From Limnomonas spitsbergensis (Eukaryota > Chlorophyta > Chlorophyceae > Chlamydomonadales): a stretch of 64,000 nt of DNA. Below, piece by piece: positions 3,550-64,000 of the stretch. Positions within the stretch are counted from its first letter, which is position 1, and the number at the start of each line of letters is the position of its first letter. The stretch lies in the NCBI GenBank assembly GCA_037349105.1, contig JAYJMM010000017.1, positions 992,001 to 1,056,000 of the forward strand, written 5' to 3'. The position numbers and the translations under genes are program-made. The notes under the pieces are model-generated. The model worked only from the letters and a program-made list of their open reading frames with translations, was not told the origin of the DNA and did not search any database.

Positions 3550-4358
3550 CCATTAGCGGAGGCCGGCCAAACAGGGCAATCAAGCACCCCACCAACATCC
3601 GACCGTGCCCCGACTGTCGTGGCTAACGCCGGCATCTCCGCCGAGCCGCGAATCCCGGGATTCCCCCCCTTTACAGCGAACGTCGCACACCTGCAACCAA
3701 CTGTGCGCGAGCGCGCAGCCATGATCGAGGCAGCCGCAGCGACTATCAGCTGCAGCCACGCCCCAGGCCTATCATCCTCGCCCTCCCTGCGACTCACTGG
3801 GACAATGCCTGGGTACCCCCTCGGCGACTGTCCCCCTCTCCCACGCGGCGGAACGACCGGCACACAAGCAGCAGCAGCAACAGCAGTACCTTCATTGGCG
3901 CTGCCAGGCTGGCCGCCTGGCCCGCAGGTTTCACAAGCCCTCCCGAAGCAGGCTTCTGCCTGCGCTCCTGCAAGCGCCCCACCGGCTGCCACCGCCACCG
4001 CGAGCGGCCTGCCCGCTGCAGCAGGTAATTCACAAGCTGGGGAGAGGATCAAGCCGGAAGGTGCACCACTTCAGCAAGGCGGACGGGTCACAGCCACGAA
4101 CCCTCCTCTGGCTCCCTTTCCCTCGTCACGCGGCCAGGCAGCCGCACCTGGGTCCCTCGGCACCCTGTTGCTGGCCCCGATCTTCCCCCCTGCGGCCCCT
4201 GCCGTCTCTTCCCCGACGACCGCACTCGGCTTCCTGACAGCGCTGCACACACCTGAGCTCCACAAGCAGCTGCAGGGCAGTCTCTCTGTAGCAAAGATGC
4301 CTCGTCCGACGCTGTTCTTCTTGGTGGCTTACGACGCCGAGGTCCATGCCCTTCTCAG
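3550..4358 (+). CDS. VTC4: VTC4 exon 1 (N-terminal low-complexity exon)
   Basis: The frame is open from 3505; first in-frame ATG is 3721. It encodes a Pro/Ala/Ser-rich segment ending in FFLVAYDAEVHALL, donor CTCAG|GTGAGTG, phase 2. The phase fits exon 2 (6102-6283), which continues with VLAQLQSLLQATIRQLDG, a helical stretch. In VTC4 proteins this place is the SPX inositol-pyrophosphate sensor. I see SPX-like helices but not the usual N-terminal M-K-F-G start or its lysine cluster, so either an upstream exon was missed or SPX has diverged strongly. Confidence 0.6.
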
Positions 4359-7300
4359 GTGAGTGCAGAGATCTCTTTAGGGTCTCTATCTCTTTTTAGA
4401 TAAGGTCTGTATCTCTTTAGAGATAGGGTCTCTATCTCTGTAGATATCTCTTAAGGGAAACCTCTTGTCTCTGATCTGGAGGGAGATCTCCCAGGCTTGG
4501 GACCGAAATCCTCACACTTATGTGGGGAGATACTATGTGGGGCGGGAGGTCTATGAAGGGAGATCTCTGAATGGGGAGGCGCAATGCCTCTTCAGGTCAA
4601 CATTAGGCTGCAGAATTATCAATGCGTGCGCGTTGGCCCAGGCTGCGCTGTTTCCTTAGCTCTTATGCCCCCACGGGGCGTAGCGTTCTTTCTTTCTTTA
4701 TCACTGCGTGCGGCCTGCTTAAAGCTTGCAGTCGTGTGGATCCAACTAAACTGAAGGAACAGCTCGATGGGTGGGCGCTGAGCAGCAGACCCGCCGATGT
4801 GTTTGCAGCCTGCCTGATGGTGTTTATACTCGATTGATCCGTGATTGTTTTTTAAGGTGCGCCAGACCACCAGACCACCTAGTTTTGAAGCAGATTTTGA
4901 AGCACCAGATTTTGCCAGATATTGAAGCACCAGATTGGGGATGCCCCAGCACCAGACCACCTGCGGGGGGGCTGCTGGTCAGCTACCATCAGGCCGATTT
5001 GGACCAAGCCTACGGCTTGTGGGCTGAGCAGCGGTGCTTGCTTCACCAGGGTAGTATAGCCATAGGCCGTGATTCATCTGAATGTTGGCTGAAGCATGCT
5101 GAAGGAAACAGTGCGCAAGGTAGGAGCTTGAAAACTGTCTACTACGAGTGTGTGTTAAATGCGATATACTGGAAGACTCAACATCTTGTCCAGTTTTAAA
5201 GGCAGGAAGGAAACTTGTGCCTGTAGAAGGCGGGGGAGATTTGTAAGCTGGGGCGATCTTTGAAGGATGGGGCGGTCTTTGAAGGATGGGGAGATTTCTG
5301 AAGGATGGGAGATATCTGAAGAGTGGGCAGATCTTGGAATGGTGGGGATATCATCAAAGGACGGGTAGATTTCTGAAGGATGGGGTTTTTCTTAAACAGT
5401 GGGGAGATCTTTGAAGGGTGGGCAGATTCCTGAAGGGGGAGATCTTTGAAAGGTGAGAATATCTCTGAATGGTGGGGAGGGCTGAAAGTTTGGAAGATCT
5501 CCAAAGGGTGGGGAGATATTTTTATGGTGGGAAGGTATTTTGAAAGGTGGGAAGGTATTTGAAAGGTGGGGATATACCTAGCGGGAGGATAAATATTTGA
5601 AAGTTGGAACATTTCTGAAGGGTGAGGTGATGTTTGAAAGGTTGGGCCATCTCCGAAGGGTGGAAGATCTTTGAAGGGTAGGAAGATCTCCAAAGGATAA
5701 CGACTACTGTCAAGGATGGAGTATGTGGAGGCCTTTGAACTGTTTCCAGATCTTTCATGGGTGGAAAGATCTTCGGGAAGATATTGGGGAGATATTTAAA
5801 AAATGGATCTCTGACGGAGCCTAGGTGACCAGAGAGGAGCAGAGCCCGGTCCCCAGGAGCACAGAGGTTGCAAGAGGTTTCGATCTCGGCCGCCTTCTAG
5901 GGTTTGGGTCATCATAGAGCAGATCCTCAGCTCGGCTCAACAAGATCTATGTGACAGGAAACTTTCTCAACGAGTTCCCCGAGTCCCGACGCGAAAAAGA
6001 AAACCATGAAACAACTTGGGGACCCAATCTTTCATGTAAAACAACAACACACGTTTTTTATGTTGAGCAAACAAATCATTGCCCCCCCCTTGCGGACGCA
6101 GGAGCTACTGTGGAGTGCTGGCCCAGCTCCAGTCCCTCCTCCAGGCCACCATCAGGCAGCTGGACGGCTCCGAAGGCACGGCACAGGCACCTGCCGAGAA
6201 GCTGGGCGGCCCGGATGGCACACTTCAGGAACCTGTCGGGAAGGTCACGAGGGAGCAAGCGCTGCAGGATCTGGATGCCGCAGGTGGGCGCCAACAGGGC
6301 CTACCGTTGGCCGCTGACCCCGCCTGCTCCCCAGTGTCCTGCCTCCCTCTCACTCACACATTATGATAGGCCCATTTCTCAAACACACTATAAGCCCCCC
6401 CCCCTGTACTTCTCCCCTTCTCACACACACCCTAAGTGCCCCCCACACACACACTCCCCCCCTTCTCACACACCCTGCCCGCCCCTCCAGGCGACACACC
6501 GTCTTCGCTGGGTCAGTTCCTCACCTTCTGAATCGACTCCCCCTTGAGCACACGCTTTCGTAGCCCTCCCCCTCCGGATATCCACACCTTTGTTTTACCT
6601 CCCATGCTGGAGAGACCCGGGCCCAGCGAAGTCCTCCACTCCTTTTTCAATCCCCCGTACACCCTCTGTGTTGTTACAAACTTGATGCAACCACCCGCAG
6701 CCTTTTGCGACAGGACCAGGCAGAGCGAACCGGAGGAGACCAGAAAACGAAAACCGAGACAGACACCAGAGAGCGAGCAAAACCGCCTGCAACAAAGACA
6801 ACACAGGAACATTGTGTCTCCCCACCTTTTTCAATTCTCTGCACAGTGCACACCCTCTGCCTGCCCCCCCCTTCCCAACACCCTTTCAGTTTCCCTGCTG
6901 CTCTAATCGTGCAAACCCTTATAGTGCAAACCCTGGTATTGTGTCCATCGTACGTGAGACCTGGGCCCTTCGGAGTGAGTTCCTCGACCTCCTGGCAACT
7001 CTCTGCGCACCGCCTTGTCCCCCCTCGCACATATCCGTCCATTGTCCCCTCCCACAGGCATACTCCCTCCCACCCTCCCTCCCTCCCTCCCTTTCTCCCT
7101 CCTCACAGGTGATACCCTGGCTCTCGTCAAGACCCTGGCCTAAGCCAAATAACATCCAGATCTCCCTCCCTCCCTCCCTCCTCACAGGTGATACCCTGGC
7201 CCTAGCTGAATGACGTTCCTCCCTCCCTCCCTCCTCACAGGTGATACCCTGGCCCTAGCTGAATGACGTTCCTCCCTCCCTCCCTCCTCACAGGCAAGCC

Positions 7301-10300
7301 CTGGCCCTAGCTGAATGACGTTCCTCCCTCCCTCCCTCCTCACAGGCAAGCCCTGGCCCTAGCTGAATGACGTTCCTCCCTCCCTCCCTCCCTCCCTCCT
7401 CTGATCCCAACCCTTTTCTCTTCCCTCCCACAGGCAAGACCCTGGCCCTAGCTCAATAACCTCCCTCCCTCTGATCCCAATTCTTTCCTTTCACAGGTGA
7501 GACCCTGGCCCAGCTGAGTGAGTTCCTGACTTCCCGTGTCGACGCCCTGGCGACGCTCGGACGCAGCCACGACAACGACATCAACAACGCGTCCCCCCCC
7601 TCCCCCGAGGCTGCCGCTGCCGAGCTGGCAGGCCTCAGGGTGCTCATGCGTCCGCGCGGCACGCTGGAATGCGAACCGCACCAGGCTGAGCTCAAGGACT
7701 ACAAGGACAGGCTGAACGTAAGTGACCTGGCCGGGTCTGAGTTGCTCTTGAAAAACAGCAAAAAGCTTTTCACTGGAAAAAATGCTCCATGTTTTCGCTG
7801 GTTCAAAAGATGCTCTGCCCTGCCCTGGCCTGGCTGGATCTGGCTTGGCTGGATCTGCCCTGCCCAGGCCTGGCCGGATCTGGCTTGGCTGGATCTGCCC
7901 TGCCCAGGCCTGGTCGGATCTGGCTTGGCTGGATCTGCCCTGCCCAGGCCTGGCCGGATCTGGCTTGGCTGGATCTGCCCTGCCCAGGCCTGGCCGGATC
8001 TGGCTTGGCTGGATCTGCCCTGCCCAGGCCTGGCCGGATCTGGCTTGGCTGGATCTGGCCTGGTTTTAATGGGTGTATGACAGCAGCACCTGCTGCAGAA
8101 GATGAGTGACCTGGCCTATCCTGGCCTGACCTGGCCAGCCTTTTTTCCAAAAGGGAGGGGCATATGGCAGCGGCACCCGCTGCTGAAGTGATGTTGTGGT
8201 AAAACTCGTTCCCATTCAAAGGATTCGAGATGTGAGGGGCTAAACAACATCACGTGAGACTGCCCTCTCCATCTCAGCCCTCTAACTCTCTAGAATGGCA
8301 GGGGCTACCTCTCCCTCTCTTCATGCTTGCAGAGAGTTTCCTCCTGGCTGCTCCCTACAGCCCTGACCACCTGATAAAAGCTCTCCCTGATTGCCTTCTA
8401 CACTGCTCTCCTATAAAGGGGCTGCCTCCTCCTGTTGGGTTCTTGCAGAGCATCCTCCTCCTGGCTGCTCCCACCAGTCCTGGCCAACCGATTAAAGCAC
8501 TCCTTTATTGCCTTACATACAGCTATCTGCTATAATTGGAGGGGCTGCCTCCTCGTCCTGGTGCTTGCAGGGCATCCTCCTCCTGGCTTCTCCCACAAAC
8601 CCCGAGCAGCTGCTGAAGCTGCTGTCCGAGGGTTACGAGGCCGCACGCGCCCGCTTCGATGCGGCGGAGAAGGACGACGCGGCGTGGATCGCTCCAGACA
8701 TGTTCAGGAGGTGGGTGTGCTGTGGGTCCTCTGCCGACTGCTGGAGCTAAACAGCTGTTCAATTGGACAAAGAAGGAAAGAGAGAGAGAAACATCCTGAA
8801 GAGCGTGCATGAATAGTATGAAGATCTTGTGCGGACATTCCAAAGATATTTTTTTGACGATTCTGAAGATTTTGTGTGAACGCTCCCAGGATATTGTGTG
8901 TGCGATTGTAACAAGGCTGACGAGCACCCAGCTGCAATGTTTGCTTGGTTCAAATTAGGCCTCTTAGACCCACTACATACAAGATCCTCGAAATGTTCTA
9001 GCTCCCACATGTCAATGAAAGCATCACAGGTTCTAGTTTTAGTTCTAGCTTCCACATGTCAATGAAAGCATCACAGGTTCTAGTTATAGTTCTAGTTCTA
9101 GCTCCCACATGTCAATGAAAGCATCACAGGTTCTATTTTAGTTCTAGCTTCCACATGTCAATGAAAGCATCACAGGTTCTAGTTCTAGTTCTAGTTCCAC
9201 ATGTCAATGAAAGCATCACAGGTTCTAGTTCTAGTTCTAGCTTCCACATGTCAATGAAAGCATCACATGTTCTAGTTCTAGTTCTAGTTCTAGTTCTAGT
9301 TCTAGCTTCCACATGTCAATGAAAGCATCACAGGTTCTAGTTCTAGTTCTAGCTTCCACATGTCAATGAAAGCATCACATGTTCTAGTTCTAGTTCTAGT
9401 TCTAGCTCCCACATGTCAATGAAAGCATCACGAGTTCTAGTTCTAGTTCTAGTTATAGCTCCCACATGTCAAGGAAAGCATCACATGCATGTTCCTGTGC
9501 CAGGGAGTGGGGGGGTAGTGAGGGAAGGGATACGGGGGTGATGGTGTGTGGCGAGGCAGCACGATACGGCACGATACTGCGCGATACGACACAGGATTAG
9601 CCGGATTGCACTAACAAGGTAGCACGATACGGCACAGGTTCAGCCGGATTGTGCCACCATGGTGTGTGGGGTGTTGATATGTGAGCTGAGGGCGTGGCAG
9701 CTTATGAGAGATGCCCAATTGTTGCAAGCCTTTAACTACCGTGACCACAGATTGAACGTCTGGTCTGGTTCATTCATTATCAAATTAACTCATTAACCCA
9801 TTAATGTATTCATTATTAAATGGGAGCTGGACAAAGAGAGTGCCTGGCTCCATATGCCCTCAATGGGGCCCTTCCACCCAAAGTTTTTCGAAATTGTTTT
9901 TCAAATCGAGGCAGCTTATGCTGGCTGTTGAATGGGACAGTGAATAGCCGAACGTTACCCTTCTCTTCCTTGCTTCACCTCAAACCTTAACCCTTGACCC
10001 TGCCCAGGAAACTAAATTGAACCCAAACACGTATCTAACAAGAAACGTCCAAATTTAACCGAAAACCGTCTACAAAAGAACACCTGTCTGAAAATCTAGC
10101 CCTGTCCAGGAAACTTCAATCTAGCCCTGTCCAGGAAACTTCAACCTACCTCAATCTAACCTTCATCTGTATCAATCTACCTCTATCCAACCTCCCTCTG
10201 TATCTCTTCCCCCTGCCCAGGAACACCACCAAGTATTGGGTGCGACCTGTGGACGTCACGAGGCTGCAAGCCTATATCTAACCTAGATCTAACCTAGATC

Positions 10301-13300
10301 TGTCTCGTTTACCCCTGCCCAGGAACACCACCAAGTATTGGGTGCGACCCGTGGATGTCATGAGGCTGCAAGCCACCATCGTGCGCCACCTCCCCCTCCT
10401 CATCTACCAGCCAGCCGCCGAGAAGAAAGCAGCCACCGGCGGTGACGACGCAACCGATTGCAGCGCCAAAGCAGCAGCAGCAGCAAAGGCACCTGACATG
10501 GCGCAGACGCCGTGCAGCAAGGTCGCCAATTGTAACTGCAACGGGAGCGGGCTGGGTGTTGAGGATCCTGCGGCGGCGGGTGTGGCGGTCCCTGAGCTCC
10601 TGGGGGCTTGCCCGGCCGTCAGCTCCTCAGTGAGCTCCGTCTACTTTGACAACCGCGAGCTGCAAGTGTATCATACTCGGCTCATGCGCGATGACGGGGC
10701 CTCGCTGGTCCGCGTGAGGTATGTCGGCGGCGGGGCGGGGAGGGGCGGGGGTAGGGCAAGGCGGGGCAGGGCGGGGTGGGGCAGAGACGGGCGGCTTGAG
10801 GCCTCCCTTTTGTTTTTTCAAGGGAGGTGCGTTGTGAACGGAGGAAGGTGGGACAGGGCTGGGCCGCGCCTGCCTTATGTTGTACGCGCCGAGAGCAGGG
10901 TTGCAGGAGGTTGTCGATGTCAAGCGACGGCGGCAGCACAGTGACTTTGATTCCAATGCCATCTGTAGGCGCGAACCAATAGGTGCGATGGCAACACATC
11001 CTTCAACAACATTGATAGCACGTGATGGAAGGACATCACTGTCTCGGTGTTCGTGTTCTGGTCTCCTCCCGGTTCGCTCTGCCTGGCCCTTTGGCTGTGG
11101 GTGGTTGTGGGTGGTTGCGTCAAATTTGTAACAGCAACATGGCTTAATGACCATTTCAGGAAGCTCTTGACGCCCGTACCCATACCCAATTGCAGGTGGT
11201 ACGGTGATCTGAACGGCCTGGACTGGCGGCAGCACAGTGATTTCCAATTTCAACTGCAGGCGCGAAGCAATAGGGGCGATGGCAGCACACCCTTTAACAT
11301 TGAGAGCATCTGATGAAAGCACATGGCGTCAAGAGCTTCCTGAAATTGTCATTAATTTGTACCCATGCCCATTGCAGGTGGTACGGTGATCTGAACTGCC
11401 TGGACTGGCCGGAGGGCCCTCCCCCATTAACAGATGCCATCTATCCAGAGAATGGCAAGAAGGAGCAGCTGCACCAGCCGCAGGGGGACAGGGGTCAAGG
11501 AGACCGTGAATTGTACATTGAGCGTAAGCGGCACCGAGCTGCCTGGACCGGGGAGTTCAGCGTCAAGGTGTGCTGCACGGTGGAAGCTGAATTCAGGACG
11601 ATTTAGTGGTCTGAGGGAAATCACGTCAAAGCTTGGCAAGGGCGGCGGGACGCGGGAATAGCTTGTGTGTGCTGATGACTGTTTCCAGCAAATAAGACGC
11701 AGCGCTCAAGGGAAGTCGGCAAAAGTGACCTCCCACCCATACCAGTGACTTTTTGTGACACACTGACACCATGGTTATCTTAATTTCCTCAAATCATACT
11801 GAGGAGCTCATGGAGGAGCTTAGCACAGGGAAGAGGCTCCTAGGGGTAAGTGGGTACTCGGATCTGAACACAGATCTGAACCAGGGTACAGGCCCCTAGG
11901 GGTTAGTAGGGTACTCAGATCTGAGGTGCAAGGACAGCATTGAGTAAAAGAGCAACAACACTCTCTCCTGGGTTTATCTGCCAGGGCTAGGCACAGCCTG
12001 GATTGGGCAAAAATACTGGCCAGCAAAAATCTGCAATTTCAAACCTGACACCTGGAATTTGAAACCCGGACCCTGCATTTCGAAACCTGGACCCTGTGAT
12101 TTGAAATCCAGACCCTGGAATTTGAAACCTGGAGCCCGCAACCTGATACCTGAAATTTGAAACCTGCAACCTGGTTGCTGATGCCGCTTCCGCGGACAGG
12201 AGCGCGCCAAGGTGAAGATGGCTGACCTGGAGCCCTTCCTGGCGGGCATGCCGGCAAATGGATTCAGAGCGAAGGGGGGCAAGCTGCTGGAGGAGGTGCA
12301 GGACTACCTCCGGGGCTGGGGGCAGGTGAGAGATCTGCAAGAATCAAGGACCCTGCATTCTAAACAAACGGATGAAAAATTCCAACCCTAAAAGTGTGAA
12401 CATTTTTACATTTTCTTTTTGCAGACCTTTGCGCCTCTCTCTATTTAAATGTATCTGTCATGACATGGCCTGCTGTGCGTGGATTGGCTGCTGTGGCTGG
12501 AAAGCCAACGCCACCATGCGTGCTTTTGATTTATCAGTGGTAGAAAGGGGGTGCACTGACGGGGCAGCACTGGATAATCTTTTGGATGGGTCATCCATTG
12601 TACCGTAAACAGCTTTTAAGCAGATTTCAACAGATTTTAATGGATTTCTACAGATGTTAGCAGGCTTAATCCCTTCCTTGTTCATTTCATGAGTTCGGTC
12701 TCCACTTCCAGGAAATACAAGTACAACTTACCATACCAGTATTTCAATTACCACCGTCACGGACGTGTTTCATTGTTGACGAAGTCCGTTGTTGCTAAAA
12801 AAGACGCAATTTCGGCGATGTTTTTGATTCGTTGCCCCTTATCATGAAAAATTCCAGTCAAAAACATTTCCACAATTGATTTCGTTGCTCCCTGAACAAC
12901 GATGAAAACAACGAAACATGTCCGCGACTACGGTACCAGTGGTTTGATTCAGTTATACTTTTGAATGCCATAATCCACTCAGCCCCACTCTGCAATGTGG
13001 TCCATGCCAAGCAGTCCACCTGAACCTCATAAACATCTTTCCCACCCTTTTTCCACCCTCTTCTTAAAACACCTTTCCCACCCTTTTCCCACCCTTGCTG
13101 CAGACGCCCATGCTCTGTACGGAGTACAGACGTACCGCTTTCCAGCGCTCTGATACCAATGCTGTACGGATCTCAATCGACTCTCAGGTGAGGTTTCAAA
13201 CCCGCCCCCCTACCTCCTGGCAGACTACGCGTGGAACAGTGCTGGTACAGGTGACCCTTAACCCTTAACCCTTAACCCCTAAACCCTGACAGACAACATG

Positions 13301-16300
13301 TGGAAAAGTTCCGGCACAGGTGACCCTAAACCTTAAACTCTTAAACCTTGACCCCCTAAACCCTGGCAGACCAGTGTGGAAAAGTGCCGGTACAGGTGAC
13401 CCTAAACCATGCACCCTTAACTTACACCCTTCACCCTAAATCCAGGCTGCGGCCAGGCAGAGGCCAGGCGGAGAGGCTAAGCAGGTTTGATGGTGGCCTA
13501 TTACGTGCCACAGGGCCCAAGGGTAGTGCTCACAGAGTCGAGGTGGAACCCCGACAGGTCTTAAGTTGGAACCCAGACAGCTCTTCAGGTGGATCACATG
13601 CAGGAGAGCACAGGCTGAGTCCAGGTCAATGATATGATACCTCTAGGACCTGCTCAAAATAGGCTCCGCCGTGTGGGCGCCCAGAAGTCAGGTTTTGAGA
13701 CAACGGGTGGAAAGAGGGAAGGAGGAGGAGGTCATGGGGGGGAAAGAAGGGGGGAACGAGATAATGGGAAGATCAAGAGGCTGATGCATGTCCCTGCATC
13801 CAAATCCAGAGTCCTGGGCAGGGCATTGGCCCCAACCCTGGGTTCATCTTTTTGCATCCGACCCTTTGTTCACCTTTTTGTATCCAACCGTTTGTTCCCC
13901 TTTTTGCATCCGACCGTGTGTTCACCTTTTTGTATCCAATCGTTTGTTCACCTTTTTGTATCCAACCGTTTGTTCACCTTTTTGTATCCAACCGTCTGTT
14001 CACCTTTTTGTATCCAACCGTTTATTCACCTTTTTGTATCCAACCCGTTTCCGTCAGGTCCTGCTTCGTCAGGTCGCCGTGGGAGGAGGTGGGCAAGGCT
14101 GCCGGGCCTGTCACTTCCCCTACGCCATCCTGGAAATCAAGCTGGAGGACGAAGAGGCATGCCCACCCTGGCTCACGGTGAGAGGCGATGACCTGGCGAG
14201 ATGAATTCAAGATTTAAATTTACCCGGAAAAATCAGCACTCTGCAAGTACATCACGAAGGGAAAATACCAGATTATGTTTTTTAGATTGGTGGTGGTGCT
14301 GTGAAATGTGAGAAGTGTGTGAAGTGTGTGAAGCATGTGAAGTTTTTACATTTCACCAGGGCATCACATTTGGTGCATGGGACATGTGCCCGTAAACCGG
14401 TACAGGTACAATACTTGATGCATGAGGCCAGTAATCGAAAATCAGTGCCACAGCCGGAATGGGGTGTAGCTCGCCGTGCTTGTGGGAATGTCACTTGTTG
14501 AGTCGCGTTTTAAACGATCTCCACGACTTCGGTATATTCTTGTATATTTCAAATGCTTCCTGCACGGTATTGGTTCATAACATTTTGAGTTGCCAGTATT
14601 CTGTACCAGGACGGGTCCGGCTAGCTTGTATCTTTAAGTAACAAAAATGTATGTGGGTAGGAGACAGGGGCAGTGCATGGAAGTGCAGCATTCCAGGTGG
14701 GTGGGGACACAATTCTAGTAGGGGAATGGGTGGATGGGTGGGCAGTGCAGCACTCCAGGTGGGTGGGTGGGTGGGTGGGTGGACAGTACAGCACTCCAGG
14801 TGGGTGGGTGGGTGGGCAGTGCAGCACTCCAGGTGGGTGGGTGGGTGGGTGGGTGGGCAGTGCAGCACTCCAGGTGGGTGGGTGGGTGGGTGCATGGGCA
14901 GTGCAGCACTCCAGGTGGGTGGGTGGGTGGGTGCGTGGGCAGTGCAGCACTCCAGGTGGGTGGGTGGGTGGGTGGGCAGTGCAGCACTCAAGGTGGGTGG
15001 GTGGGTGCGTGGTCAGTGCAGCACTCCAGGTGGGTGGGTGTGTGGACAGTGCAGCACTCAAGGTGGGTGGGTGGGTGGGTGCATGGGCAGTGCAGCACTC
15101 CAGGTGGGTGGGTGGGTGGGTGCGTGGGCAGTGCAGCACTCCAGGTGGGTGGGTGGGTGGGTGCGTGGGCAGTGCAGCACTCCAGGTGGGTGGGTGGGTG
15201 GGCAGTGCAGCACTCCAGGTGGGTGGGTGGGTGGGTGCGTGGACAGTGCAACACTCAAGGTGGGTGGGTGGGTGCGTGGACAGTGCATCATTCAAGGTGG
15301 GTGGGTGGGTGGGTGGGCAGTGCAGCACTCCAGGTGGGTGGGTGGGTAGGTGGGTGGGTGGGTGGGCAGTGCATCACTCCAGGTGGGTGGGTGGGTGGGT
15401 GGGTGCGTGGGCAGTGCAGCACTCCAGGTGGGTGGGTGGGTGGGTGCGTGGACAGTGCAGCACTCAAGGTGGGTGGGTGGGTGGGTGCATGGGCAGTGCA
15501 GCACTCCAGGTGGGTGGGTGGGTGCGTGGGCAGTGCAGCACTCCAGGTGGGTGCGTGGACAGTGCAGCACTCCAATTGGGTGGGTGGGTGGATGGGTGGG
15601 CAGTGCAACACTCCAGGTGGGTGGGTGGATGGGTGGGTGGACAGTGCAGCACTCCAGGTGGGTGGGTGGGTGGGTATGTGGGTGGGTGGGCAGTGCATCA
15701 CTCAAGGTGGGTGGGTGGGTGCGTGGGCAGTGCAGCACTCCAGGTGGGTGTGTGGGTGGGTGGGTGGGTGGGTGGGTGGGTGGGTGCGTGGGCAGTGCAG
15801 CACTCAAGGTGGGTGGGTGGGTGGGTGCGTGGACAGTGCAGCACTCCAGGTGGGTGGGTGGGTGGGTGCGTGGGCAGTGCAGCACTCCAGGTGGGTGGGT
15901 GGGTGGGTGGGCAGTGCAGCACTCCAGGTGGGTGGGTGGGTGCGTGGGCAGTGCAGCACTCCAGGTGGGTGGGTGGGTGCGTGGGCAGTGCAGCACTCCA
16001 GGTGGGTGGGTGGGTGGGTGGGCAGTGCATCACTCCAGGTGTGTGGGGACAGCATTCTAGTATTTCCTAGCCTCCTTGACGTTTATAGTATCTCCTACTT
16101 CCTGTCACCCCCCTATCACCTCACCTCCCTCTCCTCCTTCATGGTACACAGGAGCTGCGGACTTGCGGCCTGCTGGTGGCTGCGCCCAAGTTCAGCAAAT
16201 TCCTCCACGGGATGTCCTTGTGTTATCCGGGAGCGTTGGCCAACACGCCGCACTGGTTCGTGCAACAGCAGAGAGAGGGGGAAGTGGGCGGGCGCGATGT

Positions 16301-23764: not shown

Positions 23765-23769
23765 ACTGT

Positions 23770-24765: not shown

Positions 24766-24769
24766 AACG

Positions 24770-36549: not shown

Positions 36550-36588
<39 letters not shown>

Positions 36589-39651: not shown

Positions 39652-39654
39652 TCT

Positions 39655-40270: not shown

Positions 40271-40275
40271 GTCAG

Positions 40276-42351: not shown

Positions 42352-42398
<47 letters not shown>

Positions 42399-44878: not shown

Positions 44879-44909
<31 letters not shown>

Positions 44910-53900: not shown

Positions 53901-56900
53901 CGTGTGGCTGGGGGGTGTTTAGGATGGATGGTTGAGGGGAGGGCGGAGGAAAGGGAGATGAGGCAGAGAGACGAGGTCGTGTGGCTGGGAGGTGTTTGGG
54001 ATGGATGGTAGAGGGGAGGGCGGAGGAAAAGGAGATGAGGCAGAGAGATGAGGTCGTGTGGCTGGGGGGTGTTTGGGATGGAAGGTAGAGGGGAGGGCGG
54101 AGGAAAGGGAGATGAGGCAGAGAGATGAGGTCGTGTGGCTGGGGGGTGTTTGGGATGGAAGGTAGAGGGGAGGGCGGAGGAAAGGGAGATGAGGCAGAGA
54201 GATGAGGTCGTGTGGCTGGGGGGTGTTTGGGATGGAAGGTAGAGGGGAGGGCGGAGGAAAGGGAGATGAGGCAGAGAGATGAGGTCGTGTGGCTGGGGGG
54301 TGTTTGGGATGGAAGGTAGAGGGGAGGGCGGAGGAAAGGGAGATGAGGCAGAGAGATGAGGTCGTGTGGCTGGGGGGTGTTTAGGATGGAAGGTAGAGGG
54401 GAGGGCGGAGGAAAGGGAGATGAGGCAGAGAGATGAGGTCGTGTGGCTGGGGGGTGTTTAGGATGGAAGGTAGAGGGGAGGGCAGAGGAAAGGGAGATGA
54501 GGCAGAGAGATGAGGTCATGTGGCTGGGGGTGTTTAGGATGGAAGGTAGAGGGGAGGGCGGAGGAAAGGGAGATGAGGCAGAGAGATGAGGTCGTGTGGC
54601 TGGGGTGTGTTTAGGATGGATGGTAGAGGGGAGGGCGGAGGAAAGGGAGATGAGGCAGAGAGATGAGGTCGTGTGGCTGGGGTGTGTTTGGGATGGTTGG
54701 TAGAGGGGAGGGCGGAGGAAAGGGAGATGAGGCAGAGAGATGAGGTCGTGTGGCTGGGGGTTTTTAGGATGGAAGGTAGAGGGGAGGGCGGAGGAAAGGG
54801 AGATGAGGCAGAGAGATGAGGTCGTGTGGCTGGGGGGTGTTTGGGATGGATGGTAGAGGGGAGGGCGGAGGAAAGGGAGATGAGGCAGAGAGATGAGGTC
54901 GTGTGGCTGGGGGGTGTTTAGGATGGATGGTTGAGGGGAGGGCAGAGGAAAGGGAGATGAGGCAGAGAGATGAGGTCGTGTGGCTGGGGGGTGTTTAGGA
55001 TGGATGGTAGAGGGGAGGGCGGAGGAAAGGGAGATGAGGCAGAGAGATGAGGTCGTGTGGCTGGGGGTGTTTAGGATGGAAGGTAGAGGGGAGGGCAGAG
55101 GAAAGGGAGATGAGGCAGAGAGATGAGGTCGTGTGGCTGGGGGGTGTTTAGGATGGAAGGTAGAGGGGAGGGCGGAGGAAAGGGAGATGAGGCAGAGAGA
55201 TGAGGTCGTGTGGCTGGGGGGTGTTTGGGATGGATGGTAGAGGGGAGGGCAGAGGAAAGGGAGATGAGGCAGAGAGATGAGGTCGTGTGGATGGGGGGTT
55301 TTTAGGATGGAAGGTAGAGGGGAGGGCGGAGGAAAGGGAGATGAGGCAGAGAGATGAGGTCATGTGGCTGGGGGGTGTTTAGGATGGAAGGTAGAGGGGA
55401 GGGCGGAGGAAAGGGAGATGAGGCAGAGAGATGAGGTCGTGTGGCTGGGGGGTGCTTGGGATGGAAGGTAGAGGGGAGGTAGGGGAGGGCGGAGGAAAGG
55501 GAGATGAGGCAGAGAGATGAGGTCGTGTGGCTGGGGCGTGTTTGGGATGGAAGGTAGAGGGGAGGGCAGAGGAAAGGGAGATGAGGCAGAGAGATGAGGT
55601 CGTGTGGCTGGGGGGTGCTTGGGATGGATGGTTGAGGGGAGGGCAGAGGAAAGGGAGATGAGGCAGAGAGATGAGGTTGTGTGGCTGGGGTGTGTTTGGG
55701 ATGGATGGTTGAGGGGAGGGCAGAGGAAAGGGAGATGAGGCAGAGAGATGAGGTCGTGTGGCTGGGGGGTGTTTGGGATGGAAGGTAGAGGGGAGGGCGG
55801 TGGAAAGGGAGATGAGGCAGAGAGATGAGGTCGTGTGGCTGGGGGGTGTTTGGGATGGATGGTAGAGGGGAGGGCGGAGGAAAGGGAGATGAGGCAGAGA
55901 GATGAGGTCGTGTGGCTGGGGGGTGTTTAGGATGGAAGGTAGAGGGGAGGGCAGAGGAAAGGGAGATGAGGCAGAGAGATGAGGTCATGTGGCTGGGGGT
56001 GTTTAGGATGGAAGGTAGAGGGGAGGGCGGAGGAAAGGGAGATGAGGCAGAGAGATGAGGTCGTGTGGCTGGGGTGTGTTTAGGATGGTTGGTAGAGGGG
56101 AGGGCGGAGGAAAGGGAGATGAGGCAGAGAGATGAGGTCGTGTGGCTGGGGGGTGTTTAGGATGGTTGGTAGAGGGGAGGGCGGAGGAAAGGGAGATGAG
56201 GCAGAGAGATGAGGTCGTGTGGCTGGGGGGTTTTTAGGATGGAAGGTAGAGGGGAGGGCGGAGGAAAGGGAGATGAGGCAGAGAGATGAGGTCGTGTGGC
56301 TGGGGGTGTTTAGGATGGAAGGTAGAGGGGAGGGCGGAGGAAAGGGAGATGAGGCAGAGAGATGAGGTCGTGTGGCTGGGGGGTGTTTGGGATGGAAGGT
56401 AGAGGGGAGGGCGGAGGAAAGGGAGATGAGGCAGAGAGATGAGGTCGTGTGGCTGGGGGGTGTTTAGGATGGATGGTAGAGGGGAGGGCGGAGGAAAGGG
56501 AGATGAGGCAGAGAGATGAGGTCGTGTGGCTGGGGGGTGTTTGGGATGGATGCCTCATCACAAAATATAGCTGCCTCCTCCTTTCTCGGGGAGCCACACA
56601 CCTAGCCGACTGACTGCGAGCCTTCTCCTCTCATGGGCCAGGGGGGGCCCATTCCTTGAGTATCGAATGACGCTTGATGCATGCTATATTTGCCCCTCCC
56701 CCCCCCTCCCCCCCAGGTGACAGGGGCACTCCATACCCCTTGAATACGGAATGCAAACTGACACATATCTGATGGCATGTGCTATGTTTGCTCCCTGTAG
56801 GCGCCAGGGATACCCCATAGGCCCATACCTTGAATACCAAACGGCAACTAACACGTATCAACATATGCTGTATTTGAATCCCAACAGGTGCCAGAGGGTA

Positions 56901-59900
56901 TACCGCCTACCTTGAATACGGAATGACAACTGACACATATCTTGATATGTAACAGATTACATATGCTTTACTTATGCTTTACATATGCTTTACTTACTAT
57001 ATTTATGTATTCCCCCCCCAGGTGCCAGGAGGGACCTCGTACCTTGAATACCGAGGGACAACTAACACATATCTGACAAACGCTATGTGTGCCCCCCCCA
57101 GGTGCCAGTAGTTACCTCCTACCCCTTGGACACAGAATGGAAGGGGTCACCCCCTACCCAGTCACCCCCTACCCCTTGGACACAGAATGGAAGGGGTTAC
57201 CCCTTACCCCTTGGACACAGAATGGAAGGGGTTACCCCCTACCCCTTGGACACAGAATGGAAGGGGTTACCCCCTACCCCTTGGACACAGAATGGAAGGG
57301 GTTACCCCCTACCCCTTGGACACAGAATGGAAGGGGTTACCCCTTACCCCTTGGACACAGAATGGAAGGGGTTACCCCCTACCCCTTGGACACAGAATGG
57401 AAGGGGTTACCCCCTACCCCTTGGACACAGAATGGAAGGAGTTACCCCCTACCCCTTGGACACAGAATGGAAGGGGTTACCCCCTACCCCTTGGACACAG
57501 AATGGAAGGGGTTACCCCCTACCCCTTGGACACAGAATGGAAGGGGTTACCCCCTACCCCTTGGACACAGAATGGAAGGGGTTACCCCCTACCCCTTGGA
57601 CACAGAATGGAAGGGGTTACCTCCTACCCCTTGAACACAGAATGGAAGGGGTTACCTCCTACCCCTTGGACACAGAATGGAAGGGGTTACCTCCTACCCC
57701 TTGGACACAGAATGGAAGGGGTTACCCCCTACCCCTTGGACACAGAATGGAAGGGGTTACCTCCTACCCCTTGGACACAGAATGGAAGGGGTTACCCCCT
57801 ACCCCTTGGACACAGAATGGAAGGGGTTACCCCCTACCCCTTGGACACAGAATGGAAGGGGTTACCCCCTACCCCTTGGACACAGAATGGAAGGGGTTAC
57901 CCCCTACCCCTTGGACACAGAATGGAAGGGGTTACCCCCTACCCCTTGAACACAGAATGGAAGGGGTTACCTCCTACCCCTTGAACACAGAATGGAAGGG
58001 GTTACCTCCTACCCCTTGGACACAGAATGGAAGGGGTTACCCCCTACCCCTTGAACACAGAATGGAAGGGGTTACCTCCTACCCCTTGAACACAGAATGG
58101 AAGGGGTTACCTCCTACCCCTTGAACACAGAATGGAAGGGGTTACCTCCTACCCCTTGAACACAGAATGGAAGGGGTTACCTCCTACCCCTTGAACACAG
58201 AATGGAAGGGGTTACCTCCTACCCCTTGGACACAGAATGGAAGGGGTTACCTCCTACCCCTTGGACACAGAATGGAAGGGGTTACCTCCTACCCCTTGGA
58301 CACAGAATGGAAGGGGTTACCCCCTACCCCTTGAACACAGAATGGAAGGGGTTACCTCCTACCCCTTGAACACAGAATGGAAGGGGTTACCCCCTACCCC
58401 TTGAACACAGAATGGAAGGGGTTACCCCCTACCCCTTGGACACAGAATGGAAGGGGTTACCCCCTACCCCTTGGACACAGAATGGAAGGGGTTACCTCCT
58501 ACCCCTTGAACACAGAATGGAAGGGGTTACCCCCTACCCCTTGGACACAGAATGGAAGGGGTTACCCCCTACCCCTTGAACACAGAATGGAAGGGGTTAC
58601 CTCCTACCCCTTGAACACAGAATGGAAGGGGTTACCTCCTACCCCTTGAACACAGAATGGAAGGGGTTACCCCCTACCCCTTGGACACAGAATGGAAGGG
58701 GTTACCCCCTACCCCTTGGACACAGAATGGAAGGGGTTACCTCCTACCCCTTGAACACAGAATGGAAGGGGTTACCCCCTACCCCTTGGACACAGAATGG
58801 AAGGGGTTACCTCCTACCCCTTGGACACAGGATGGAAGGGGTTACCCCCTACCCCTTGGACACAGAATGGAAGGGGTTACCCCCTACCCCTTGAACACAG
58901 AATGGAAGGGGTTACCTCCTACCCCTTGGACACAGAATGGAAGGGGGTGCCCCCTACCCCTTGGACACAGAATGGAAGGGGTTACCCCCTACCCCTTGAA
59001 CACAGAATGGAAGGGGTTACCTCCTACCCCTTGGACACAGAATGGAAGGGGTTACCCCCTACCCCTTGGACACAGAATGGAAGGGGTTACCTCCTACCCC
59101 TTGAACACAGAATGGAAGGGGTTACCCCCTACCCCTTGGACACAGAATGGAAGGGGTTACCCCCTACCCCTTGAACACAGAATGGAAGGGGTTACCTCCT
59201 ACCCCTTGAACACAGAATGGAAGGGGTTACCTCCTACCCCTTGAACACAGAATGGAAGGGGTTACCCCCTACCCCTTGAACACAGAATGGAAGGGGTTAC
59301 CCCCTACCCCTTGGACACAGAATGGAAGGGGTTACCTCCTACCCCTTGAACACAGAATGGAAGGGGTTACCCCCTACCCCTTGGACACAGAATGGAAGGG
59401 GTTACCTCCTACCCCTTGGACACAGGATGGAAGGGGTTACCCCCTACCCCTTGGACACAGAATGGAAGGGGTTACCCCCTACCCCTTGAACACAGAATGG
59501 AAGGGGTTACCTCCTACCCCTTGGACACAGGATGGAAGGGGTTACCCCCTACCCCTTGGACACAGAATGGAAGGGGTTACCCCCTACCCCTTGGACACAG
59601 AATGGAAGGGGTTACCCCCTACCCCTTGAACACAGAATGGAAGGGGTTACCTCCTACCCCTTGGACACAGAATGGAAGGGGGTGCCCCACACAGGATGGA
59701 GATTGAAACATCTCTGACATATCACATATGGCAGGTATACCCCATAGGCCCCCTACCTTGAATACTGACTGCAGGCCCCAGAAGGTGGAGTACAGCTTAG
59801 CATCCACTGGCTGGCCCACGCTGTCCAGGTCATCCGGCTTGACCTGCAAAGATAGGGAGTGGCGAAAGGAATCAGAGTCCATTTTGAATAAGATAGAAGA

Positions 59901-62900
59901 TGTTCAGCCAGGAGAGGTGGCAGGGGTGAGGGTGGCTGGCCCACGCTGTCCAGGTCATCCGGCTTGACCTGCAAAGAAGTGGCACAAAGGATTAGAGTTC
60001 ATTTTGATCCGGGACAAAATGATTCTTTCAGCCTTCTTTTTTTTGTTTTTGAAGATACTCAGCAAGGAGAGGTGGCAGGGGGCTGGCCCACGCTGTCCAG
60101 GTCATCCGGCTGCTGCAGGGCTTTGGAGCTTAAGGGGCTTAGAGCTAAAGGGGCTTAGAGCTAAAGGGGCTTAGAGCTAAAGGAGCTTAAGGAGGTTAGA
60201 GCTAAAGGAGCTAAAGGGGCTTAGAGCTTAAGGAGCTTAGAGCTAAAGGAGCTTAGAGCTTAAGGGGCTTAGAGCTAAAGGAGCTTAGAGCTAAAGGAGC
60301 TTAGAGCTAAAGGAGCTTAGAGCTTAAGGAGCTTAGAGCTTAAGGAGCTTAGAGCTAAAGGAGCTTAGAGCTTAAGGGGCTTAGAGCTAAAGGGGCTTAG
60401 AGCTAAAGGGGCTTAGAGCTTAAGGAGCTTAGAGCTAAAGGAGCTTAGAGCTTAAGGGGCTTAGAGCTTAAGGGGCTTAGAGCTAAAGGGGCTTAGAGCT
60501 AAAGGAGCTTAGAGCTAAAGGAGCTTAGAGCTTAAGGAGCTTAGAGCTAAAGGAGCTTAGAGCTTAAGGGGCTTAGAGCTAAAGGGGCTTAGAGCTAAAG
60601 GGGCTTAGAGCTAAAGGGGCTTAGAGCTAAAGGGGCTTAGAGCTAAAGGGGCTTAGAGCTTAAGGAGCTTAGAGCTTAAGGGGCTTAGAGCTAAAGGGGC
60701 TTAGAGCTAAAGGGGCTTAGAGCTTAAGGGGCTTAGAGCTAAAGGGGCTTAGAGCTAAAGGAGCTTAGAGCTTAAGGGGCTTAGAGCTAAAGGGGCTTAG
60801 AGCTAAAGGGGCTTAGAGCTAAAGGGGCTTAGAGCTCAAGGAGCTTAGAGCTAAAGGGGCTTAGAGCTAAAGGGGCTTAGAGCTAAAGGGGCTTAGAGCT
60901 AAAGGGGCTTAGAGCTAAAGGGGCTTAGAGCTAAAGGGGCTTAGAGCTAAAGGGGCTTAGAGCTAAAGGGGCTTAGAGCTAAAGGGGCTTAGAGCTAAAG
61001 GGGCTTAGAGCTAAAGGGGCTTAGAGCTTAAGGGGCTTAGAGCTAAAGGAGCTAAAGGAGCTTAAGGAGGTTAGAGCTTAAGGAGCTTAGAGCTAAAGGA
61101 GCTAAAGGAGGTTAGAGCTTAAGGAGCTTAGAGCTAAAGGAGCTTAGAGCTTAAGGAGCTTAGAGCTAAAGGAGCTTAAGGAGGTTAGAGCTTAAGGAGC
61201 TTAGAGCTAAAGGAGCTTAGAGCTAAAGGAGCTTTAGAGCCACAAATAGACCCCCCCTGCCCCCCCCCTCCAAGCTGCTCCCTGTGCCTCCTCCTGCCTG
61301 AGCCCTTACCTCGTCGATGGGGAGAGGCGGTAATTGAAATGTAGCCGAACTGTAGCCGATTCCACAAATATGCCCCCCCCTGCCGCCCCCCCCCCAAGCT
61401 GCTCCCTTTACCTCCTGCCTGCCTGACCCCCGTACCTCATCAATTGGGAGAGGCACACCAGCATTAATATTGCCCGTCAGGTTGAGCCCCGACTTGTCTG
61501 AAAGAGGGTACAGCCTCACGATGAAGATCAGGATGCGACCGCACAGCTGCACGTCATTGGCCTACAATGGGATCAGGGTTTAGATCAAGTCATCAAGATG
61601 CGTACATAGAGCCGCAGGGCACTAGCCTGCAATGGGATTAGGGTGTAGATCAAGTTGCGTACATACAGCTGCACATCATTGGCCTACAATGGGATCAGGG
61701 TCAAGATCAGGATGTGACCACACAACCTCAGGGCACTAGCATGCAATGGGTTTCATGTTGTTCATGACAGAGAGAGCTTGGCAGGGAGCGGGTTAAGGGT
61801 TTAGATCAGGAAGTGACCACACAGCCGCAGGGCAACGACATCTAGCCTGCACCTAGCACATCTAGGCAACACCTACTTCCCCCCCCCTTGCTTCCACTTG
61901 GAAAAGTAAATCTAGCCAGAACCTACTCCCCCCCCCCCCCCCTGCTTCCACTTGGCACAGTCCTCACCTTGGACAGACGTCTCAGCAGGCCGTTGCAAGA
62001 CCTCTAGCCAACACCTATCACCTAACCCCCCCCCCCCTGCTTCCACTTGGAAAAGTAAATCTAGCCAGAACCTACTCCCCCCCCCCCCCCTGCTTCCACT
62101 TGGCACAGTCCTCACCTTGGACAGACGTCTCAGCAGGCCGTTGCAAGACCTCTAGCCAACACCTATCACCTAACCCCCCCCCCCCTGCTTCCAATTGACA
62201 CAGCACGCCTAGCTATCACCTAACCCCCCCCCCTGCTTCCAATTGACACAGCACGCCTAGCTATCACCTAACCCCCCCCCCCTGCTTCCAATTGACACAG
62301 CACGCCTAGCTATCACCTACCCCCCCCCCCCCTCCACCCACACACACACCCTGCTCCCACTTGGCACAGTCCTCACCTTGGACAGACGTCTCAGCAGGCC
62401 GTTGCAAGACCTCAGTATGGCTAGCTGTGCTGGGTGGGATGTGGCAGCCTTGGGGACTATGGGCTTGTCCGAGGCGACGGCTGCAGCGGCTGCGGTGGCG
62501 GCAGCCAGACGAGCCGCTCGGGACTCGCTGCTGAGGAACTGCGAGGGATCGGAGGATGGAAGAGGAGGGTGAAAAAACGATGCAGTATATTTGAGGGTGC
62601 CTCAGGTCAAATTCAGCTACATACCTCAGGGTGAACTTACATACATAAAAATAAGGTGCCGTGCATCACTTACCGTGGATTCGATTCGCCATCCCTCGGA
62701 TATGGAACAACGATTTATTTCAGGCTGAAGCTACCGGCAAATAATCGACAAAACAAAATCCTAATTCTGACTGAATCCTAATTCTGACTGAAAACTGGCA
62801 TCGACAATCGAGAATTAGAGAATTCATGGATCCCTCGACCCCAAGCAATGAAAATGTATGAGGGAAGGCAAAGCAAATCTACAGACCAAGGTGAATGTAT

Positions 62901-63239
62901 CCCCAGCACTTCTTTTTCCGGCTACGAGGCTACGCTCGGTGGGCCGTCACCCCACTGTGAGAAGCCCGGGTGGGAAAAGATCTGTTTGACCAGACGGCGT
63001 CCCACACTGCTCAGCAGGACACTCACAAGCCCAGTGAGAAGCTGAACTGAAGCTGAATGGTTGCTGAGCCGCGAGAACAGAAACGAACTCTTAGTCCTCC
63101 TCCCCAATCCTCACCTCTAGGTCTGCTTCCATGCATGCAAAGACGTCCTGGCAATCGTGAATGGTTCCAACTTCCAGCAAGTCCTCCAGCAGCTTGCAGT
63201 ACCCTGCCAGATCCATCATACGCGGGCCCGGAGGAGCAC
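40276..63239 (-). CDS. THOC1: THO complex subunit 1 (HPR1), 5'-partial, 9 visible exons
   Basis: THOC1/HPR1 is a nuclear subunit of the THO/TREX complex that couples transcription elongation to mRNA export. Visible exons (minus): 63239-63115, 62538-62377, 61561-61436, 59843-59757, 45143-44814, 43783-43613, 43159-42794, 41483-41337, 40656-40276 (stop). All internal ones are phase 0 and GT-AG. Hallmarks in family order: YCKLLEDLLEVGTIHDCQDV; LRSCNGLLRRLSK; ANDVQLCGRILIFIVRLYPL with SDKSGLN; DAKLYSTFWGLQSVF; YLTSSKLFGLQ; DATFRRHFLVQAAIQL; QFANAVRSVMERETQW followed by KKDGCLPFE; NRVYAWKASRMLSRHHLASF. The last exon is Glu/Lys/Ala-rich with a basic KQAPKRGREE. It lacks a visible death domain, as in plants. 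630 codons visible; the N-terminus lies beyond 64000. The last exon might instead splice at AAG|GTAGCT near 40298. Long Ala runs interrupt the conserved core in three exons. Confidence 0.93.
40890..41340 (-). repeat. Decoy donors of THOC1 exon 41483-41337
   Basis: The exon end plus donor (plus: GCAGGCCTACCTTTGAACTT + GCAAACGAGGCCA) recurs at about 41157, 41235, 41065, 40990 and 40900, two slightly different flavours alternating, with a ~130-bp higher-order period. Confidence 0.9.
41500..41890 (-). repeat. Decoy acceptors of THOC1 exon 41483-41337
   Basis: Plus-strand GGGGCCCAGCATTTCCTGCG (41553) and diverged relatives at 41655, 41757, 41850 and 41890 copy the acceptor and first ~20 bp of the exon, each followed by GGGTTTAGG-like telomeric motifs. 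Confidence 0.85.
42190..42793 (-). repeat. Decoy donors of THOC1 exon 43159-42794
   Basis: About twelve copies of the exon end and donor: on the minus strand GCGCAAGATCCTGCCAGA ... CTCAAG|GTGTGTG. Downstream copies drift (GAAG|GTGTGTG) and the donor GTGTGTG has grown into (GT)n microsatellites (42358-42395, 42470-42498). Confidence 0.92.
43265..43345 (-). repeat. Decoy acceptors of THOC1 exon 43159-42794
   Basis: Plus ATGGCCGTGTAAACCAACAG (43276) and ATGGCCGCGTCAACCTGCAG (43325) copy the real junction ATGGCCGCATACACCTGCAT (43146). Confidence 0.75.
43425..43612 (-). repeat. Decoy donors of THOC1 exon 43783-43613
   Basis: The exon end plus donor is copied at 43480-43545 (plus CACCTTCTCCGAGAGCTCCT) and, shorter, at 43420-43445. 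Acceptor-side copies are at 43878-43915 (plus ATCCCGCATCTGAAGTAGG), 44085 and 44150. Confidence 0.85.
44330..44813 (-). repeat. Decoy donors of THOC1 exon 45143-44814
   Basis: Three diverged copies of the exon end and donor at about 44670-44710, 44530-44570 and 44395-44430. Plus core: AGCTTGCTACTGGTGGCACA versus the real AGCTTGCTGCTGGTGAGGTA; interspersed GGGGGTGT... spacers are also shared. Confidence 0.82.
45270..45440 (-). repeat. Decoy acceptors of THOC1 exon 45143-44814
   Basis: Plus TGATGATGAACACGGTGTGG on the minus strand at 45430-45395 and a weaker copy at 45285-45240 reproduce the first ~40 bp of the exon (real AACTCGGCATGGGCCCGCTT). Confidence 0.88.
45440..56545 (-). repeat. 77-bp satellite, about 144 copies, with higher-order repeats
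   Basis: An 11.1-kb purine-rich (plus) / pyrimidine-rich (minus, sense) array inside one THOC1 intron. Unit (plus): GAGGTCGTGTGGCTGGGGGG, TGTTTGGGATGGAAGG, TAGAGGGGAGGGCGGAGG, AAAGGGAGATGAGGCAGAGA. Variant patterns repeat over 2927, 2466 and 3081 bp, so blocks of 30-40 units were duplicated. Minus-strand ORFs of up to 455 codons are artefacts of the array. Confidence 0.97.
56640..59756 (-). repeat. Donor-derived repeats and 35-bp satellite, about 72 copies
   Basis: The sequence around the donor of the THOC1 exon 59843-59757 (minus: TATTCAAG|GTAGGGGG) is repeated. Diverged 80-130-bp copies with TACCTTGAATAC(C/G)RA lie at 56655, 56737, 56830, 56910 and 57040. Between 57115 and 59695 a regular 35-bp unit (plus CCCCTACCCCTTGGACACAG + AATGGAAGGGGTTAC) forms the array, with two main variants (TTGGACAC / TTGAACAC; CCCCCT / CCTCCT). 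Confidence 0.93.
59800..60120 (-). repeat. Decoy acceptors of THOC1 exon 59843-59757
   Basis: The exon start (minus GTCAAGCCGGATGACCTGGA + CAGCGTGGGCCAG) occurs again at 59973-59935 with its own TTTGCAG acceptor and at 60112-60080 without it. Spacing ~130 and ~140 bp. Confidence 0.92.
60118..61240. repeat. 16-18-bp array GGGGCTTAGAGCTAAA
   Basis: About 68 units of GGGGCTTAGAGCTAAA with GGGG/GGAG and CTAAAG/CTTAAG variants; intronic (THOC1). No relation to a splice junction is evident. Confidence 0.95.
61300..61760 (-). repeat. Decoys on both sides of THOC1 exon 61561-61436
   Basis: Donor side: minus TCTCCCCATCGACGAG|GTAAGG at 61311, a diverged copy of the real TCTCCCAATTGATGAG|GTACGG. Acceptor side: plus GCACATCATTGGCCTACAAT (61671) nearly equals the real GCACGTCATTGGCCTACAAT (61549); weaker ones at 61615, 61730 and 61830. 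Confidence 0.9.
61850..62376 (-). repeat. Decoy donors of THOC1 exon 62538-62377
   Basis: The exon end plus full-consensus donor (minus CTGAGACGTCTGTCCAAG|GT) is perfectly repeated at about 62150-62105 and 62010-61965. Between them are C-rich ~60-bp units (ACACAGCACGCCTAGCTATC, poly-C, TGCTTCCA). Confidence 0.92.
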
Positions 63240-64000
63240 CTAGGGGGGGGCAGAGGCAAGGGATGTGCAGGAGGGCATCCAACAGGGAGTAAAGGACTAA
63301 TGGGCGTAGAGGACACACATCCAGCAGCTTGCAGTACCCTGCCAGATCCATCATACGCGGGCCCGGAGGGGCACTTAGGGGGGGGCAGAGGCAAGGGAGA
63401 TGCGGGAGGGCATCGAACAGGGAGTAAGGGACTAAGGGGCGGATAGACACACATCCAGCAGCTTGCAGTACCCTGCCAGGTCCATCATACGCGGGCCCGG
63501 AGGAGCACCTAGGAGGGGGCAGAGGCAAGGGAGATGCAGGAGGGCATCGAACAGGGAGTAAGGGAGTAAGGGGCGTAGAGGACACACATCCAGCAGCTTG
63601 CAGTACCCTGCCAGGTCCATCATACGCGGGCCCGGAGGAGCACCTAGGGGGGGGCAGAGGCAAGGGAGATGCGGGAGGGCATCGAACAGGGAGTAAGGGA
63701 GTAAGGGGCGGAGAGGACACACATCCAGCAGCTTGCAGTACCCTGCCAGGTCCATCATACGCGGGCCCGGAGGAGCACCTAGGAGGGGGCAGAGGCAAGG
63801 GAGATGCAGGAGGGCATCGAACAGGGAGTAAGGGACAAAGGGGTGGATAGACACACATCCAGCAGCTTGCAGTACCCTGCCAGATCCATCATACGCGGGC
63901 CCGGAGGAGCACCTAGGGGGAGGCAGAGGCAAGGGAGATGCGGGAGGGCATTGAACAGGGAGTAAGGGAGTAAGGGGCGTAGAGGACACACATCCAGCAG
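63186..64000 (-). repeat. 134-135-bp array of THOC1 exon-start duplications
   Basis: Each unit holds intron tail, CCCCCTAG acceptor and the first 54 bp of the THOC1 exon at 63239 (GYCKLL end), then returns to intron sequence (GATGTGTGTCCTC). Landmark CCAGCAGCTTGCAG at 63186 (real), 63321, 63455, 63590, 63725, 63859 and 63994; the array runs off the window edge. Confidence 0.95.

Follow-up and report, generated by a model that had tools for sequence, protein, structure and literature searches.

Tandem repeats whose units span exon-intron boundaries have been described in amphioxus as 'mirages' (PMC3087553; PMC3902484). In the accessible text of these reports, mirages are found in Adh3 and in the globin genes BflGb6 and BflGb9, PGBD5 is compared to them, reverse transcription polymerase chain reaction indicates regular splicing, and haplotypes differ in copy number; the authors considered the mechanism unclear and proposed that new introns could originate from mirages (PMC3087553). 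For the algae Chlamydomonas reinhardtii and Volvox carteri, the accessible part of one study reports that the density of tandem repeats is highest in introns and rises toward intron ends (PMC3887541). Here we analyse a 64,000-nucleotide stretch of the genome of Limnomonas spitsbergensis (C17:992001-1056000, hereafter the window), in which many splice junctions are accompanied by tandem copies of themselves. L. spitsbergensis is an Arctic snow alga whose published assembly totals 260,248,090 bases (54.15% GC) over 124 contigs, with IsoSeq reads and a mean intron length of 788 base pairs (bp) in the merged annotation; the genome paper puts the species in a clade with Chlamydomonas ICE-L, UWO241 and C. 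eustigma, and its accessible text makes no mention of junction repeats (PMC11228838). The genome used here comprises 260,226,709 bases in 124 contigs. A preliminary description of the window knew of no described process giving junction-anchored repeats; as regards the phenomenon, the amphioxus mirages are a described case. The junction arrays are real, occur in many genes, and are of that described kind.

Splice junctions of four genes are copied in tandem

The window contains four genes, one more than had been recognised at first. VTC4, on the + strand, has 11 matches, including VTC proteins of Tetrabaena and Gonium, and THOC1, on the - strand, extends from about 40.3 kilobases (kb) past the window end and matches 7znk (E 2.3e-33) and 7apk (E 3.8e-33); both of these earlier identifications stand. 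The additional gene, at about 26.8-28.3 kb on the - strand, is SLD5-like, with Pfam Sld5 above the cut-off and SLD5_C slightly below it. Between SLD5 and THOC1, also on the - strand, lies a gene that had been called a glycosyltransferase, a name without support from Pfam, since a scan of the SLD5 exons and those of this gene, joined together, returned SLD5 families only; the exon at 29.6-29.8 kb was put in this gene by eye. A likely GC-AG intron is seen in the same gene at position 34610 (- strand), likewise placed by eye. Known RNA families gave no match in the window at the gathering threshold. By-eye placement in the four genes yielded 58 junctions, 31 acceptors and 27 donors; this list lacks two donors, one of VTC4 near 21.59 kb and one of SLD5 near 27.37 kb. 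All junctions, whether called by eye in the window or through Pfam matches in other genes, were placed from the DNA sequence only.

We scored as a junction copy any ungapped match of at least 28/40 to the junction-centred 40-mer within 1.5 kb. At least one local copy accompanies 22 of the 58 window junctions, in line with the initial estimate of about 20, and all 48 copies (48/48) lie on the intron side. Specifically, copies are found at 6/9 acceptors and 5/8 donors of THOC1, 4/6 acceptors and 2/6 donors of the so-called glycosyltransferase gene, 1/3 acceptors and 0/1 donors of SLD5, and 4/13 acceptors and 0/12 donors of VTC4, where acceptor 7497 is scored as a miss (26/40) because of indels, the repeat being obvious by eye. 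Control searches with exon centres (0/25) and shuffled junction 40-mers (0/290) gave no copies, and shuffled controls gave none of the tandem clusters described below; a chance origin of copies and clusters is thus rejected.

The copies were originally described as decaying with distance from the exon, which holds as a tendency only. Among the 20 junctions in the window and other genes that have at least two copies at 27/40 or better, the closest copy is best or joint best at 13, and the rank correlation is negative in 14 and positive in 5.

Introner-like and other dispersed elements place the same sequence at many separate loci. A whole-genome search with the 135-bp unit of THOC1 acceptor 63239 returned at least eight matches, all within C17:1055185-1056199, that is, in its own array, which continues past the window end. 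For this single unit searched, a dispersed element is rejected, the matches listed being those of its own array only.

Junction-spanning copies occur in genes elsewhere in the genome

To sample genes outside the window, we used exon matches of the chaperonin family PF00118 (68 of 72 matches) and the tRNA synthetase family PF00133 (25 of 30), taking as an intron the interval between adjacent matches that continue in the profile. There were 50 adjacent pairs, 44 of them with sequence; after removal of one without a call and one with a negative score, the sample comprised 42 introns with 84 junctions, in 13 genes on 12 contigs. Spanning copies are present at 12/84 junctions, 6/42 donors and 6/42 acceptors, in 7/13 genes, which bears out the expectation that the arrays occur beyond the window. 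The exon control, at 84 places 80 bases into the exon, gave no copies. Tandem clusters are absent from five of these genes, with 13 introns between them (C22, C61, C4, C118 and the C17 synthetase), and genes therefore differ widely. The window and the outside sample together have spanning copies at 34/142 junctions.

A paralogous array differs by one unit

About 7 kb to the left of the window start there is an inverted second SLD5 copy, a putative gene (L009:1850-3480, corresponding to window positions 26650-28300), which is 90% identical to the first across 1,551 aligned bases. At the equivalent acceptor, the 79-bp unit is present in about 2.7 repeats in the window and 1.7 in L009, and the alignment gap sums to 79 bases, exactly one unit. 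Furthermore, the L009 unit that adjoins the exon is similar to the middle one of the window array. Judged from this one pair of paralogues, the array seems to predate the gene duplication and to have gained or lost a single whole unit since then, right at the junction. The same region also contains a 949-bp direct duplication, 99.8% identical and offset by 1,316 bases, between window positions 367-1315 and L009:9051-9999.

The sharing of an array by the two SLD5 paralogues, one unit apart, bears on the reading that the arrays are assembly artefacts. In its favour, some arrays are long and near-identical, and the analysis uses the assembly sequence only; against it, 38 of the 48 window copies carry at least 3 mismatches to their junction over 40 bases, and copies are present in seven of the 13 other genes. 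We regard an artefact as extremely unlikely.

Tandem copies lengthen introns

Cluster analysis covered 68 introns, each extended on both sides by up to 150 bases into the exon, the 14.6-kb window intron being excluded. Low-complexity matches were filtered out here, as also in the outside sample and in the analysis of copy coverage. It identified 69 tandem clusters, whose extra copies make up 22,457 of the 56,721 intron bases examined (about 40%). Introns with clusters have a median length of 859 (n = 41) versus 402 for those without (n = 27), and reducing each cluster to one unit lowers the former to 510. The proposal that introns grow by tandem duplication spanning their junctions is thus upheld, and the arrays provide a still visible route to intron lengthening.

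Tandem duplication across an intron-exon boundary is also a known process of intron birth (PMC4974935, in its accessible part), and the arrays might be ascribed to it. However, the copies repeat the exon end and the intron sequence of one junction, so that the intron already existed, and none of the arrays seen gives rise to a new intron within this genome, intron positions not having been compared across species. We therefore hold the birth of new introns to be a highly improbable explanation.

Junction crossing by near-identical duplications argues against strong targeting

The account that we favour, with a probability of roughly 0.68, is that high-rate local tandem duplication, largely blind to gene structure, together with selection, accounts for the junction arrays. 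Duplications, with units observed at about 12-300 bp, would arise frequently and mostly without regard to gene structure, and selection would purge those internal to exons. A duplication overlapping a junction would be tolerated because the copy adjoining the exon body gives an unchanged messenger RNA and the other copy turns into intron. Such arrays would then gain or lose whole units in the manner of minisatellites, introns would lengthen, and some arrays would unavoidably come to contain intron tail, AG and exon head, or exon tail, donor and intron start. Slippage or end-joining duplication, followed by unequal exchange, is the probable mutational mechanism.

The preliminary description had expected repeat units to overlap junctions more often than random intronic positions, and had linked this to slippage or break repair targeted to junctions. 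The overlap is borne out in the pooled data: 27 of the 69 clusters cross a junction (16 at acceptors and 11 at donors), versus 13.0 expected if units are placed uniformly over the intron and overlapping exon. The targeting does not follow. Near-identical duplications, at 90%, 93% and 96% identity, cross in 10/38, 5/28 and 3/17 cases, versus 6.2, 3.5 and 1.9 expected. In simulations of junction-blind duplication with exons frozen or nearly so, in which real intron lengths are not matched individually, crossing reaches 1.06-1.75 times the naive expectation over six settings, with crossing shares of 14-20%, 15-19% and 14-18% at the same three identities. Window clusters cross in 16 cases versus 6.3 expected, a figure biased upward because the window is the discovery set; the independent clusters, from outside the window, cross in 11 versus 6.7 (1.64-fold), which falls within the blind model (P 0.11 to 0.38).

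Older junction copies look over-represented because a constrained exon partner keeps their match detectable for longer, and with local blind duplication the apparent over-representation would accordingly be predicted to rise with age, as the frozen exon half of one copy prolongs detectability. In acceptor copies, the exon side matches better than the intron side (0.88 versus 0.71; better in 14/17), the pattern due from such a half-frozen pair. Spanning clusters have a median unit of 116, versus 38.5 for interior ones, a gap that is partly expected, long units crossing more easily.

A different view is that junctions are mutational hot spots, where breaks brought about by R-loops, paused transcription or the spliceosome are repaired in a way that duplicates the junction. 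Tandem duplications extend over whole introns, copy coverage, in the window and in the outside genes, shows no peak at the junction and only drops into the exon, near-identical duplications show little excess, and the independent set is compatible with the blind model, all of which speak against hot spots. In their favour, and likewise against our account, the pooled excess is about 2.1-fold, and the pooled crossing share (39%) exceeds the simulated 17-31% (P <= 0.006 in three settings). With units of 80-120 bp, 11 of 14 clusters cross, versus 4.0 expected, and the intron-end density in Chlamydomonas and Volvox (PMC3887541, as far as its text is accessible) also favours hot spots. Our account is further weakened by several observations. 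In the window, tandem copies account for 65% of intron bases and 17% of exon bases, versus 13%, 11% and 0% in the three stretches of intergenic DNA sampled (about 8 kb, gene-free by eye only), a contrast between introns and intergenic DNA that a fully blind process leaves unexplained and that the hot-spot view accommodates. Donor copies show no exon advantage (exon side 0.82, intron side 0.83). The exon share of the unit has a median of 0.30, versus 0.49-0.50 in simulations (P about 0.003; 24 spanning clusters with 60-200 bp units); exon-rich copies may be better decoys and counter-selected, or duplications may start within the intron. Finally, the near-identical counts are small and would also allow a junction preference of about 1.5-fold.

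On balance, hot spots at junctions are an unlikely explanation. We also consider improbable the broader proposal that duplications arise preferentially at junctions or in the transcribed introns that surround them, through breaks linked to transcription or splicing, with introns growing from their ends genome-wide and the exon slice short since longer decoys are spliced. Junction targeting is not needed, the excess lying among older copies; a mild preference is possible.

Copies retain splice signals as decoys

Canonical dinucleotides are retained in 18/25 acceptor copies and 91/93 donor copies, and at least one decoy lies within 2 bits of the true site at 11/17 acceptors and 9/13 donors. Such retention and strength would fit arrays maintained by selection because the extra sites serve to regulate splicing or to maintain intron length. 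The retention of the acceptor AG is, however, close to the prediction from neighbouring positions (0.65), many of the donor copies come from a single C37 array (56 copies), and the size and sequence of the unit vary from junction to junction; selection for the arrays is therefore very unlikely. Conversely, selection against decoys was not seen at acceptors, and at donors the test is weak, with few arrays giving most copies. Under local duplication blind to gene structure, the spliceosome would presumably pick the exon-proximal site through its exon context, and we infer that splicing is correct despite the junction copies. Junctions at which a decoy roughly equals the true site in strength provide a natural test of splice-site choice.

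Array positions and other repeats

The arrays are listed in Table 1.

Table 1. Arrays at splice junctions and within introns, in window coordinates
Feature	Position	Strand	Match or basis
VTC4 acceptor 7497: preceded by tandem 52-bp units (7165-7391) of intron tail, AG and exon head	7060..7497	+	26/40, fails ungapped 28/40 test
VTC4 acceptor 8571: junction copy 122 bp upstream, 117-bp unit	8324..8595	+	30/40
VTC4 acceptor 10323: one copy, 102 bp upstream	10200..10375	+	36/40
VTC4 acceptor 11378: copy 182 bp upstream	11180..11420	+	30/40
VTC4 acceptor 22156: four upstream copies	21900..22187	+	29-33/40
SLD5 acceptor 26994: 79-bp units; L009 paralogue one unit shorter	26977..27190	-	40-mer test and paralogue alignment
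Acceptor 29837: 90-bp units; exon assigned to so-called glycosyltransferase by eye	29788..30021	-	40/40, 30/40
So-called glycosyltransferase: one copy at acceptor 32733, two at donor 32633	32560..32850	-	28-31/40
So-called glycosyltransferase GC donor 34610: one copy 95 bp downstream	34480..34640	-	29/40
So-called glycosyltransferase acceptor 35786: copy 92 bp upstream	35760..35900	-	29/40
So-called glycosyltransferase acceptor 37314: weak copy 148 bp upstream	37290..37490	-	28/40
THOC1 donor 41336: five copies in an array whose units (83 and 173 bp) span the donor	40894..41382	-	40-mer test
THOC1 acceptor 41483: three upstream copies, ~100-bp unit	41460..41836	-	40-mer test
THOC1 donor 42793: seven downstream copies	42263..42820	-	28-32/40
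THOC1 donor 43612: two downstream copies	43400..43640	-	40-mer test
THOC1 acceptor 43783: copy 108 bp upstream	43760..43920	-	33/40
THOC1 donor 44813: copy 141 bp downstream	44650..44840	-	29/40
THOC1 acceptor 45143: two upstream copies	45120..45460	-	31-32/40
THOC1 acceptor 59843: copy 125 bp upstream	59820..59990	-	31/40
THOC1 acceptor 61561: two upstream copies, 57-bp unit	61540..61750	-	40-mer test
THOC1 donor 62376: two exact downstream copies, 148-bp period	61879..62400	-	40/40 twice
THOC1 acceptor 63239: array continuing past window end, each ~135-bp unit holding intron tail, AG and exon head	63185..64000	-	38-40/40
VTC4 intron-interior array, stops short of junctions	14727..16047		cluster detection
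77-bp x 143 array within the 14.6-kb THOC1 intron	45494..56550		intron excluded from cluster analysis

Long near-identical arrays occupy one or two introns of THOC1 (45494-56550, 77 bp; 57164-59688, 35 bp; 60126-61240, 16 bp), and others are found at 17167-19233 (20-bp unit) and 30436-31951 (21-bp unit). A dispersed short element around GGGCCCTGCTNAAAAAGGCTCGGCCGCGTGGGCG is present in the window at 24704-24739, 26201-26236, 29211-29246 and 30034-30069, and has 198 + 213 exact matches across the genome, versus 0 for the reversed control. On contig C3, the region at about 44-155 kb is satellite-like, with a 22-base word at 100 or more places, spaced by, for example, 593 and 1345 bases.

Comparison with known systems

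The arrays of L. spitsbergensis share three features with amphioxus mirages. Minisatellite-like units span exon-intron boundaries (22/58 and 12/84 junctions; 27/69 clusters), both the 5' and the 3' boundaries of introns are involved (11 donor-spanning and 16 acceptor-spanning clusters), and splice signals are often kept in the copies (18/25 acceptor, 91/93 donor). As to the instability of array length, the observation here is one paralogue pair, not a pair of alleles, that differs by one unit. In the Chlamydomonas and Volvox study, which concerns the same order, repeats were counted by position, and its accessible text does not describe units that cross junctions (PMC3887541). Among the matches listed in our literature search (titles and partial abstracts, most subscription papers lying outside it), there was no report of junction-spanning arrays in algae. 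The accessible part of PMC4974935 describes one tandem duplication across an intron-exon boundary, as here; there a new intron arises, whereas here existing introns grow. The accessible literature on mirages concerns single lancelet genes, while 34/142 junctions are involved here, and the mechanism therefore becomes statistically testable. Unlike the amphioxus mirages, the present arrays belong to an alga, are spread over many genes of one genome, and are known from DNA sequence alone. What is new is thus the organism, the scale, and an age structure of the copies that argues against strong targeting of junctions.

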